From Bacteroidales bacterium (GTDB lineage Bacteria > Bacteroidota > Bacteroidia > Bacteroidales > Marinilabiliaceae), in NCBI GenBank assembly GCA_024401335.1, contig JAKSLH010000015.1, positions 1-64,000 on the forward strand: 64,000 nucleotides of DNA, given 5' to 3'. The notes beneath the pieces were generated by a model, which saw only the letters and a program-made list of their open reading frames with translations, made no database searches and was not told the origin of the DNA. The position numbers and the translations under genes were made by a program. Below are positions 49,010 through 52,320 of this stretch, piece after piece. Position 1 is the first letter of the stretch; every line of letters begins with the position of its first letter.

Positions 49010-50845
49010 TTATTTCTTGATAAGATTCATCTCGCATAGTGCACAATTCATCACTATGTCATACTTGCCGTTTTCGCCTATGAGTGTCAGCGGTAGCTTG
49101 CTTCTGTTCTCCGGGTGTTTCTTGAGGCACATGCCCAGTCCGTCCATTATGCAATATTTCGTTGTCATCACTCGCGATCCCTTGTAGTCCGTCTGTCGTT
49201 CATAGCCCCATTCCGTCATCTCGCAACCGTGACGCTGGTAAAACTCCTTAGCCTTGTCGTTCACGATGTTACCTTCTCGCCCTATACTCTCTACTACATA
49301 TCGGTGGTCGGTAGGGGAGAACTTGAAATGGTCGGGATGGAAATGCTCGAGCCTTTGCTGTATGTGGTGTTCTATCATCTCTCTACGCAGAGAGTTGAGT
49401 TCCGATGCTGCAAAAAACATCTGGGCTACGTCGGCGCTTACCGTCACCTCTTGAGCCGTGAATGGAGTCTGTCCCAGCTTAGACAGTTGTCTGATGATGT
49501 TCTGCATCGACATCTCAGCGTTCTTAGCTATGTCGGCGCTTATCTCCTTCTTGTAAACCGATATCACGTCGCTGTCCGTGCATGTCACGCACACCTTGCC
49601 GTCTTTGTCAAAGCAAACGTCGATACGTATAGGGATGAGGCGTTGTGTCTTGTCTTCCGTCAGCTTATCTTCGAATGCCACGTCCAAGTTACGCCTTATT
49701 ACAGTTCCCTTAGTTATGTCCTTAGGCATTCTGAGCGGGAAGACCCATTGTTCCTCGGCTCTGTTCACCCTCAGACCGTCATATTCGCCTCTCTGTGTGC
49801 GATAACAAAGTCCGTCGCCGTTGTTAAGCTCTATCTTAGTCTGTATCCTGAAAGAGTCTTTCCTTATGTCAGCTATGCGTCCTATCTCCTCGCCAATCGA
49901 CTTCGGAGTGTCAGGCTGGTTCATGTCGTGCTGACGCGAATTCATGAAGTAAGTCGTGAAGCCCCTGTTGAAGCTCTTGCTTACGTTAGGCTCGTATGCT
50001 GCAATACTTTCGCCTTTCGATGCTCTCTGCCACTCCGGATGACGTTTTAGTATCTCGTCAATCACCCTGCGATAGTGTAGAGTCACGTTGGCCACGTAGC
50101 CAGCATCTTTCAGTCGTCCCTCTATCTTGAGAGTCGAGGCACCGGCACGTATCATCCTCTCTATATTCTCGGTCTGGTTCTGATCTTTGAGTGATAATAT
50201 ATGCTTCTGTCTGACAATCGTATTGCCGTCCTTATCAACAATGTCATATTTCAGTCGGCAAGGCTGTGCGCACTCTCCACGGTTAGCCGAACGTCCGTTG
50301 ACTGACTGGCTCATATAGCATTGACCGCTATAGCTCACGCACAGTGCACCATGTATGAAACATTCGAGTCTCACCTGTGTCTTCCTAGCAATCTGCTCAA
50401 TCTGCTCCAGCGACAATTCACGCGCCAGAACCACCTGTTGGAAACCACATTTCTCGAGGAACTGCACCTTCTCTACCGTCCTGTTGTCCATCTGTGTCGA
50501 GGCATGCAGCTCTATGGGAGGCAGCTCCATCTCCACAAGTCCCATGTCCTGCACGATGAGTGCATCCACCTTAGCGTCGTACATCTTCCACGCGATATTG
50601 ACGGCCTCCTTCAGTTCGCTGTCAGTGAGTATAGTGTTCAGGGCAACGAATACACGCACTCCGTATGTATGTGCCAGTTCCACAGTGCGTCTTATGTCAT
50701 CTACAGTGTTAGCAGCGACACGTCGGGCAGAAAACTGAGGGGCACCGATATATATAGCGTCGGCACCGCTCAATATGGCAGCTCTGGCACATTCGTAGTT
50801 CTTGGCAGGAGAGAGCAGTTCAATGGTGTTTCGAGGTGAAAGCAT
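49010..50845 (-). CDS. U32-family protein (RlhA/TrhP type)
   Basis: The product is 611 aa. The U32 domain fills the first 300 residues, with ELLSPAKNYECARAAILSGADAIYIG, the family signature ECFIHGALCVSYSGQCYMS near residues 158-176, and NRGECAQPCR near residues 184-193. A C-terminal extension of about 250 residues is as in YdcP-type proteins. E. coli relatives hydroxylate 23S rRNA C2501 (RlhA) or tRNA U34 (TrhP) rather than cleave proteins, so RNA modification is the likely role. Cys ligands for an Fe-S cluster appear present. No promoter is visible in the 16 nt between the RNA terminator and the ATG, so transcription probably comes through the structured RNA upstream. Confidence 0.88.
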   Translation of the reverse strand: MLSPRNTIELLSPAKNYECARAAILSGADAIYIGAPQFSARRVAANTVDDIRRTVELAHTYGVRVFVALNTILTDSELKEAVNIAWKMYDAKVDALIVQDMGLVEMELPPIELHASTQMDNRTVEKVQFLEKCGFQQVVLARELSLEQIEQIARKTQVRLECFIHGALCVSYSGQCYMSQSVNGRSANRGECAQPCRLKYDIVDKDGNTIVRQKHILSLKDQNQTENIERMIRAGASTLKIEGRLKDAGYVANVTLHYRRVIDEILKRHPEWQRASKGESIAAYEPNVSKSFNRGFTTYFMNSRQHDMNQPDTPKSIGEEIGRIADIRKDSFRIQTKIELNNGDGLCYRTQRGEYDGLRVNRAEEQWVFPLRMPKDITKGTVIRRNLDVAFEDKLTEDKTQRLIPIRIDVCFDKDGKVCVTCTDSDVISVYKKEISADIAKNAEMSMQNIIRQLSKLGQTPFTAQEVTVSADVAQMFFAASELNSLRREMIEHHIQQRLEHFHPDHFKFSPTDHRYVVESIGREGNIVNDKAKEFYQRHGCEMTEWGYERQTDYKGSRVMTTKYCIMDGLGMCLKKHPENRSKLPLTLIGENGKYDIVMNCALCEMNLIKK

Positions 50846-50861
50846 ATCTGTCGTTTATATA

Positions 50862-50915
50862 AAAATGAAAGTTGGAAGCCGCAAAGATCATGTCTGACTC
50901 TCACTTCCAACTTTC
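50862..50915 (-). terminator. intrinsic terminator of the structured RNA, just before the U32 gene
   Basis: Perfect 12-bp arms (50867-50878 and 50904-50915, 25-nt loop) are followed on the minus strand by an A then a run of five T. It ends 17 nt before the U32 ATG. Confidence 0.85.
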
Positions 50916-51161
50916 TTTATAAGGGGCCGCACGGCTGGATTATTTAAACTCCTAATGAAAGGATTTGGGTGCTCCACTACGCTGTAATCTTCATGTGCCC
51001 GAAGGCAATCCTGTTCCGATCCGTCACGGCGCGTTAGCGCTAGGATATAAGTTGGAACATTGTAGAAGCCCGCCATTGTAGCTTTAGCGTCGCCCGGTTT
51101 ATTGAATTATTTGTTAAGTTAAACAATCAAAGAATCCAATGCGGCTTTTCTTCTTCTAATA
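50862..51161 (-). ncRNA. structured RNA of about 300 nt: candidate leader/attenuator or free RNA
   Basis: It is bounded by a consensus promoter and an intrinsic terminator. On the minus strand these helices can form: closing GGGC/GCCC plus CGC/GUG (51087-51095 with 50924-50932); GCUUC+UAC with GUA+GGAGC (51062-51069 with 50971-50980); UGUUCC/GGAACA (51054-51059 with 51012-51017); AUCC/GGAU inside it; a GCGC-UAAC-GCGC hairpin (51029-51040); and a UGCC-UUCG-GGCA tetraloop hairpin (50996-51007). The segment 51049-51057 repeats the terminator 3' arm and could pair with its 5' arm. tmRNA and RNase P signature sequences are absent. 6S RNA and the Bacteroidales-1 family are alternatives that I cannot exclude. 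Confidence 0.7.
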
Positions 51162-51167
51162 CATTAG

Positions 51168-51198
51168 CAAATATAGATGTATTTATTGAAATGGCAAA
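51168..51198 (-). promoter_or_regulatory. promoter of the structured RNA
   Basis: On the minus strand TTTG (51198-51195) and TATATTTG (51175-51168) are 19 nt apart, a full consensus match. The start is expected near 51161. Confidence 0.75.
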
Positions 51199-51228: not shown

Positions 51229-52320
51229 CTATTCATCAAGTTCAGCTTCAGCCAGTATGTCTCTCAACGAAGCAGCTGTTATCGCTTTGGCTATAACAGT
51301 CCTGTCGGGAGCGATGATGAGAAATGCCGGTATCCAATGTATGCCGATCTCCTGTGTCACAGCAATGTCATGCCACTTCGGTTCCAGTGTGCTTATCTGC
51401 GGCCAAGTCAATTCCTGTTCTTTGACATATTTGCGCCACTGCTCACCATCTCTGTCAAACGAATAGCTGAGAAACGCAATGTCATAGCCCAGTATGTTCT
51501 TGTCTTTGAACTCATTGTAGATATTCTTGAATTCAGGCATCTCACGACGGCAGTCGCCGCACCATGTCGCCCAGAAATCTACTACGACAAATTTGCCGCT
51601 ATAGTCGGATAGTCTTATCTCCTTGCCGTTGATGTCAGGAGCCTTGAAGTCGGATATTATCGTTCCCAGTTCAATGTCAGGCAAGTATTCAGGATGTCTT
51701 AAAGCCAGAGTGTCAACATATAGCTCTTTCTCCATCTTATCTATATATAGCTCGCCGATGAGGTGGTCGGTCTCATGCTGGAATATCACGGCAGTATATC
51801 CAGTCACAGTGTCAAGTACTGTGCTGAGACTCTTCTCGTCGGTATATGATACGACAACAGTGTCAGCTCTTGATACCAGACCTCTTCTCTCTGGTATTGA
51901 CAAGCATCCTTCGCGACCGACGTGTTGTGATGCCGAGCGGTAAGTTATTGTAGCGTTAGGGTAGAGTTCAAAAGGCTCACCCTCCTTGTCAAAACGCTTT
52001 ACAGCAACGAGTTTGCAGCTTATCCCCACCTGAGGAGCAGCTATGCCAACGCCCTTGTTGTTCGGGTCGTTGACAGTCATGAGCATGCCGTCCTTGAGGC
52101 TTTGGTAAGTATCTGATGTGATATCATCTGCGCTCAACGTGCGAGCCGTCTGTCTCAGCAATAGGGAGTCTTCTGTATTGTTGATGACAGTCAAGCGCAT
52201 AATGTTGCCCTTCTGTGAATTGATGATAGTCTTCTCAGCCTCGCTAAATCCGTTGTCTCTGCAACTTGTTGCGACAGCCGCCAATGTCAGTAGTATGCTC
52301 AGTATTGTAATATGCTTCAT
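51229..52320 (-). CDS. exported peptide deformylase-thioredoxin fusion lipoprotein
   Basis: The product is 363 aa. Signal peptide with lipobox-like VATSC, Cys20. Residues 40-205 are a peptide deformylase domain with all three motifs: GVGIAAPQ at 90-97, EGCLS at 137-141 (metal ligand Cys139), and QHETDH at 181-186 (ligands His182 and His186, catalytic Glu183). Residues 222-360 are a TlpA/ResA-like thioredoxin domain with CGDC (Cys254, Cys257) in FWATWCGDCRREMPEF. Deformylases normally act on nascent chains in the cytoplasm; here the enzyme is predicted outside the inner membrane and joined to a disulfide-exchange domain. Substrate and role are unknown. The gene has its own promoter and lies upstream of the RNA element. 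Confidence 0.88.
   Translation of the reverse strand: MKHITILSILLTLAAVATSCRDNGFSEAEKTIINSQKGNIMRLTVINNTEDSLLLRQTARTLSADDITSDTYQSLKDGMLMTVNDPNNKGVGIAAPQVGISCKLVAVKRFDKEGEPFELYPNATITYRSASQHVGREGCLSIPERRGLVSRADTVVVSYTDEKSLSTVLDTVTGYTAVIFQHETDHLIGELYIDKMEKELYVDTLALRHPEYLPDIELGTIISDFKAPDINGKEIRLSDYSGKFVVVDFWATWCGDCRREMPEFKNIYNEFKDKNILGYDIAFLSYSFDRDGEQWRKYVKEQELTWPQISTLEPKWHDIAVTQEIGIHWIPAFLIIAPDRTVIAKAITAASLRDILAEAELDE

Follow-up and report, generated by a model that had tools for sequence, protein, structure and literature searches.

The segment analysed here lies on the minus strand of the window, by which we mean the whole 64,000-nt stretch of a Bacteroidales contig that was examined, in the region between a gene for a peptide deformylase-thioredoxin protein (51229-52320) and a U32 family gene (49010-50845, minus strand, PF01136 plus DUF3656), which is the next gene downstream. 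An Rfam scan of the window returned two features above gathering score, a tRNA and a member of the Bacteroidales-1 family (RF01693), for which Rfam gives the description "6S-Bacteroidales RNA suggested". The RF01693 match at 50919-51146 (minus strand) spans the model from end to end (1-179 of 179) and scores 66.5 bits, which places this free-standing non-coding RNA gene in the family by covariance-model score (gathering score, at least 60 bits). An earlier sequence-only reading had taken the segment for a riboswitch or attenuator of U32, had suggested an Infernal search against Rfam and had named 6S RNA and Bacteroidales-1 as the families to compare if the RNA were free-standing; it is this fallback that the full-length match backs, at a score modestly above 60. 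A 62-aa ORF at 50888-51076 was also considered and belongs to no Pfam family.

RF01693 occurs once in the genome of origin, whose assembly is 85% complete. Among relatives it was found in 38 of 61 genomes, mainly of the same genus and family, and in 64 of 71 genomes of the family; both scans used stricter Infernal filters, with which weak matches are lost. Within the genus 14 of 15 genomes carry it, the exception (G005) being estimated at 85% completeness, and of 24 genomes from the order but outside the family, 5 gave a match under the stricter filters. A reannotation of Porphyromonas gingivalis gives one Bacteroidales-1 RNA per strain (PMC5771137). A single genome of the family set, G086, has two matches, both above the cut-off (on C36 and C51), possibly representing two 6S RNAs or else contamination, which is estimated at 5%. 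In total, 70 distinct RF01693 matches were collected, 58 of which were taken as loci and 12 left out.

The nucleotide similarity to the two closest relatives extends over query positions 46-283 (G001) and 44-300 (G014), with the RNA at 55-282 and the terminator stem at 286-334. It thus stops at or near the RNA ends, and most of the terminator falls outside the conserved unit. Taken together with the fold and the signals described below, the segment is very probably a single-copy gene for Bacteroidales-1, which has been proposed to be the 6S RNA in Bacteroidales. Against this identification it may be held that 66.5 bits barely exceeds the cut-off of 60, and that the RNA of the window is 32-43 nt longer than that of 11 of the 14 genus loci. 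The additional length resides in the apical arm; in other respects the RNA resembles its homologues, being full-length and single-copy, with the conserved core, the promoter box and the terminator. It is an ordinary, well conserved gene of a known family in which the apical arm has been lengthened.

Fold, promoter and terminator of the RNA

The sequence-only reading had described a structured RNA, and the region is indeed more stable than its shuffled versions: 289 nt fold with -82.2 kcal/mol compared to a shuffled mean of -69.6 kcal/mol (z -2.74), with 1 of 200 shuffles equally good. For the comparative analysis we used an alignment (A1) of 42 of the 58 loci, the omitted 16 being extra members of genera already represented. 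The resulting structure has 30 pairs, 22 of them with two-sided changes, and across the 42 sequences 95.4% of cells are paired. Its covariation score is 0.417, against 0.180 after shuffling and at most 0.115 with slid partners, the slide control favouring the structure, which was obtained from the same alignment by RNAalifold with two isolated pairs dropped. The rod structure is therefore supported by covariation.

The rod is closed by a stem formed by 51139-51145 (5' strand) and 50926-50932 (3' strand; both on the minus strand), in which all six counted pairs show two-sided changes and 96.8% of cells are paired across the 42 sequences. Further inward, a long-range helix of the AAACUC/GAGUUU type joins 51116-51123, with the consensus UUAAACUC and the window sequence UUUAACUU (one U-U mismatch), to 50944-50951 (GAGUUUAA), likewise on the minus strand. 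Of its eight pairs, formed in 97.0% of cells, three show two-sided changes and three are invariant. Both helices are unpaired in the structure line of the Rfam family, for which covariation and additional sequences are thus provided here. The apical arm (50967-51095, minus strand), recognized from the Rfam alignment and from covariation, consists of a GGG/CCC base and the helices above it. The base reads GAG/CUC in most of the 42 sequences, and this change to GGG/CCC, together with further two-sided changes, agrees with the apical-arm structure of the RF01693 model. Several non-standard pairs are marked in the apical arm in the window's own Rfam alignment.

The lengthening of the arm is due to an extended apical hairpin with approximate limits 51010-51062 (minus strand; alignments A2 and A3), which contains the UGUUCC/GGAACA helix and an AGCGC...GCGCC hairpin and is shared, among the 14 genus loci, with L026 and L034 only. 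The UGUUCC/GGAACA helix, which had been proposed from the sequence, pairs 51054-51059 with 51012-51017; all six pairs are formed in the window, L026 and L034, and compensatory changes are seen among these three insert-bearing homologues. The AGCGC...GCGCCGUGA hairpin is conserved in the same three loci. The insert was also considered as a repeat element, but is present in a single copy in its own genome.

Upstream of the RNA, at 51168-51175 (minus strand), there is an exact match, TATATTTG, to TAnnTTTG, the Bacteroidetes-type -7 box. A TTG at 51195-51197 (minus strand) could be the -33 element. An exact TAnnTTTG occurs within the 91-nt stretch at the RNA start in 54 of 58 loci, compared to 72 of 1721 stretches from elsewhere in these loci; when the start stretches were dinucleotide-shuffled 100 times, the mean was 4.2 and the maximum 10 of 58. 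A consensus promoter had been noted previously from the sequence. As a sigma-70 promoter it does not stand out, because matches of this type in the region are not above chance (three found, 3.6 expected), and this candidate was dropped. The site probably meant, TTGCCA-16-TATATT, is nevertheless among the three and overlaps the -7 box.

Downstream, 50867-50915 (minus strand) forms a hairpin whose stem has 13 bp. It is followed by ATTTTTAT, with the T-rich tail reaching 50859, and the hairpin's end is 21 nt away from the U32 ATG; the intrinsic terminator of the sequence-only reading is thereby confirmed. A simple terminator scanner with a loop limit of 8 nt reported no terminator in the region. 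Well-scored intrinsic terminators lie 3' of the RNA in 53 of the 58 loci, and their arms vary not only from genus to genus but inside this genus too. As judged from sequence, the box in 54 and the terminator in 53 of the 58 loci define a free-standing gene with its own promoter and terminator. The remaining five loci (L014, L038, L048, L052 and L053) are devoid of a well-scored separate terminator and, by eye, have a T-run directly after the closing stem, which may itself act as the terminator there.

Complementarity between the apical hairpin and the terminator

The segment UUCCAACUU at 51049-51057 (minus strand), located inside the extended apical hairpin, equals the 3' arm of the terminator and has a 9-nt complementarity with the 5' arm, located at 50905-50913, as had been pointed out before. 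On this basis two mutually exclusive folds had been proposed: pairing of 51049-51057 with the 5' arm would form an anti-terminator and switch U32 on. An intrinsic terminator between the RNA and a gene is indeed a feature shared with transcription attenuators and riboswitches, and for the window sequence taken by itself the match is rare, being reached in 8 of 3000 shuffles of the window RNA. The duplex is also strong (-11.5 kcal/mol, where cross-genus combinations average -7.2 kcal/mol; z -3.2) and exceeds every cross pair.

To place these values among homologues, the complementarity between RNA and terminator was determined in 53 loci, the five loci that have no well-scored terminator being omitted. 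In the other 52 loci the longest complementarity is 7 nt, and the means for own and cross-genus combinations are nearly the same (5.11 and 5.15). Matches of at least 9 nt occur in 0.33% of 2458 cross pairs, so that 0.215 of the 53 loci would be expected to have one by chance; one was observed. With G-U pairs allowed, lengths of 11 are attained in five loci of two genera and of 10 in two loci of a third, L026 having 9 and L034 having 6; here too the own mean (7.30) matches the cross-genus mean (7.28), and at least 11 is found in 4.1% of cross pairs. Duplex energies give z values of -3.6 for L034 and -2.8 for L023, with a mean of +0.20 over the 53 loci. In L034 it is the RNA's 3' end, rather than the insert, that takes part in the best duplex.

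In the alignment of the three insert-bearing loci (A3), in which the terminators align poorly and three sequences are few, L026 retains the anti-terminator pairing at 2 of 9 positions, five others being gapped, and L034 at 7 of 9 (one mismatch, one gap). The L034 segment may be counted in favour of a switch; L026 speaks against it, and within the limits of three sequences the anti-terminator shows no covariation. The same nucleotides are instead constrained, with compensatory changes, as an arm of the UGUUCC/GGAACA helix, so that the three sequences would seem to point to the apical hairpin and away from a switch. Moreover, the terminator hairpin (-21.7 kcal/mol) is considerably more stable than the duplex that would compete with it (-11.5 kcal/mol), and U32 neighbours the RNA in 5 of the 58 loci. 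In contrast to attenuators and riboswitches, then, the RNA has neither a single linked gene nor a conserved anti-terminator. The swaps of terminators and RNA bodies among the 53 loci, the shuffles and the three-homologue alignment led us to reject the anti-terminator switch, and together with the RF01693 match they make a riboswitch or attenuator at this locus highly unlikely. Most likely, 51049-51057 belongs to the apical hairpin and matches the terminator by chance, and a false riboswitch candidate can be removed.

Relationship to 6S RNA

6S RNAs have the architecture of a rod with a closing stem, an internal bubble and an apical arm. The Bacteroidales-1 RNA of the window is alike in all these elements, with two-sided changes at 6/6 closing-stem pairs and the inner helix paired in 97% of cells, and like 6S RNA (RF00013) it is encoded by a free-standing gene. 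It differs in that RF00013 has no match in the genome at E<=1. Neither RF00013 nor 6S-Flavo (RF01685) matches anywhere in this genome at that threshold, so that the 85%-complete assembly yielded no further candidate for a 6S RNA.

At a looser threshold (E<=10), RF01685 gives full-length matches at the same place and on the same strand as RF01693 in 15 of 20 loci, a sample drawn from 38 loci in which the 15 matching ones are mutually related and not independent. The best E-value is 0.0033 and the best score 42.4 bits; the window itself, also matched over the full length, reaches 19.8 bits with E 3.8. All these scores are far below the gathering score of 85 bits, which was attained in none of the 20 loci nor in the window, so that by model cut-off the RNA belongs neither to RF00013 nor to RF01685. 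Five of the 20 loci (L002-L005 and L022) have no RF01685 match at E<=10, and the model also produces matches below the cut-off in the archaeon Methanocaldococcus jannaschii. The co-located matches are accordingly support for a 6S relationship and not proof of it. Bacteroides ihuae, one of 14 controls, has an RF01693 match and neither an RF00013 nor an RF01685 match. If the link between Bacteroidales-1 and 6S-Flavo, weak but repeated, is genuine, it would fit a single 6S lineage across Bacteroidota.

A dRNA-seq study of B. thetaiotaomicron reports detection of a Bacteroides 6S RNA together with evidence that its pRNAs fall into two classes; the account of this RNA bears no Rfam accession and does not identify it as RF01693 (PMC7366714). 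A function of the Bacteroidales-1 RNA other than that of 6S RNA could be argued from the fact that the Rfam 6S label is offered as a suggestion, as well as from the missing RF00013 match and the RF01685 scores below cut-off. In addition, Weinberg et al. 2010 list Bacteroidales-1 as an RNA ('Y') and leave both cis-regulation and switch at '?' (PMC2864571). The weak but repeated full-length matches to 6S-Flavo in 15 of the 20 loci, the rod with its closing stem and bubbles, and the lack of another 6S candidate in the genome count against such a function, which we consider improbable.

From its sequence and fold, we infer that the RNA functions as a 6S RNA in this organism. Its transcription would begin at a Bacteroidetes-type promoter of its own (-7 box at 51168-51175) and end at its own intrinsic terminator (50867-50915), and the RNA would adopt a long rod fold made up of closing stem, internal bubbles and apical arm. 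By analogy with 6S RNA, the rod would imitate an open promoter and bind sigma-loaded RNA polymerase as growth slows, and short product RNAs transcribed from the RNA would free the polymerase-bound RNA.

The U32 gene and other neighbours

Control of U32 by the RNA had been suggested from its position. As a general relationship this does not hold: the five loci in which U32 follows the RNA (L001, L015, L018, L026 and L034, always in the same direction) all belong to this genus, where they make up 5 of 14 loci, and there is no general RNA-U32 link. A next ORF downstream was found in 51 loci; in 35 of them it is encoded on the opposite strand, and there the RNA cannot lead that gene. For the remaining 7 of the 58 loci no downstream ORF was found, in L018 because the drawn U32 frame overlaps the RNA end. 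Sequence downstream was shorter than 1500 bases in three of the 58 loci (335, 495 and 614). Nine other genus genomes have a U32 orthologue elsewhere. Of the loci with U32 genes elsewhere, four were scanned (L062, L066, L072 and L075, of which L075 comes from Candidatus Physcocola equi), and no RF01693 match above the cut-off was found in them.

Within the small clade of RNA-U32 loci, the 6S RNA could at the same time serve as a leader of U32 through partial read-through of the terminator, which is compatible with its being the Bacteroidales-1 RNA. The common direction in 5 of 14 genus loci, the short distance from the terminator stem to the U32 ATG (19-24 nt in the five loci) and the position of U32 away from the RNA in the nine other genus genomes agree with this. 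In line with the earlier remark that U32 has no other visible promoter, an exact TAnnTTTG is absent within 200 nt upstream of U32 in all five loci. The exact box can miss real promoters, however, and it is found within 200 nt of U32 in three of the nine orthologues located elsewhere and missing in six, so that its absence alone is weak evidence. The terminator, besides, is intact in all five loci. On balance, read-through into U32 is a real, though somewhat doubtful, possibility.

In E. coli, the 6S gene ssrS and the downstream ygfA form such a pair, with the downstream gene expressed by read-through. Still more tentatively, one might suppose that in the small clade the 6S gene is a promoter-bearing leader of U32 and that read-through ties U32 expression to the level of 6S RNA. 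If true, an operon headed by a 6S gene would have evolved a second time, independently of ssrS-ygfA, and the 6S-U32 arrangement offers a modest example, open to testing, of a 6S gene as operon leader. As for the U32-family product, the NCBIfam model that fits it best is that of the tRNA hydroxylase TrhP, at a score below the cut-off (188 of 534 bits), and its DUF3656 domain is reminiscent of the rRNA hydroxylase RlhA; it is possibly an RNA hydroxylase.

The gene on the other side of the RNA (51229-52320, minus strand) encodes a 363-aa protein in which a lipoprotein-like N-terminus (...VATSC) is combined with two domains, one a peptide deformylase and the other a TlpA/ResA-like thioredoxin (WCGDC). 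The deformylase domain carries the deformylase motifs GVGIAAPQ, EGCLS and HETDH. At E<=1e-30 the protein is found in this genome only, that is, in 1 of 71 genomes of the family, and an extracytoplasmic deformylase-thioredoxin would be odd.
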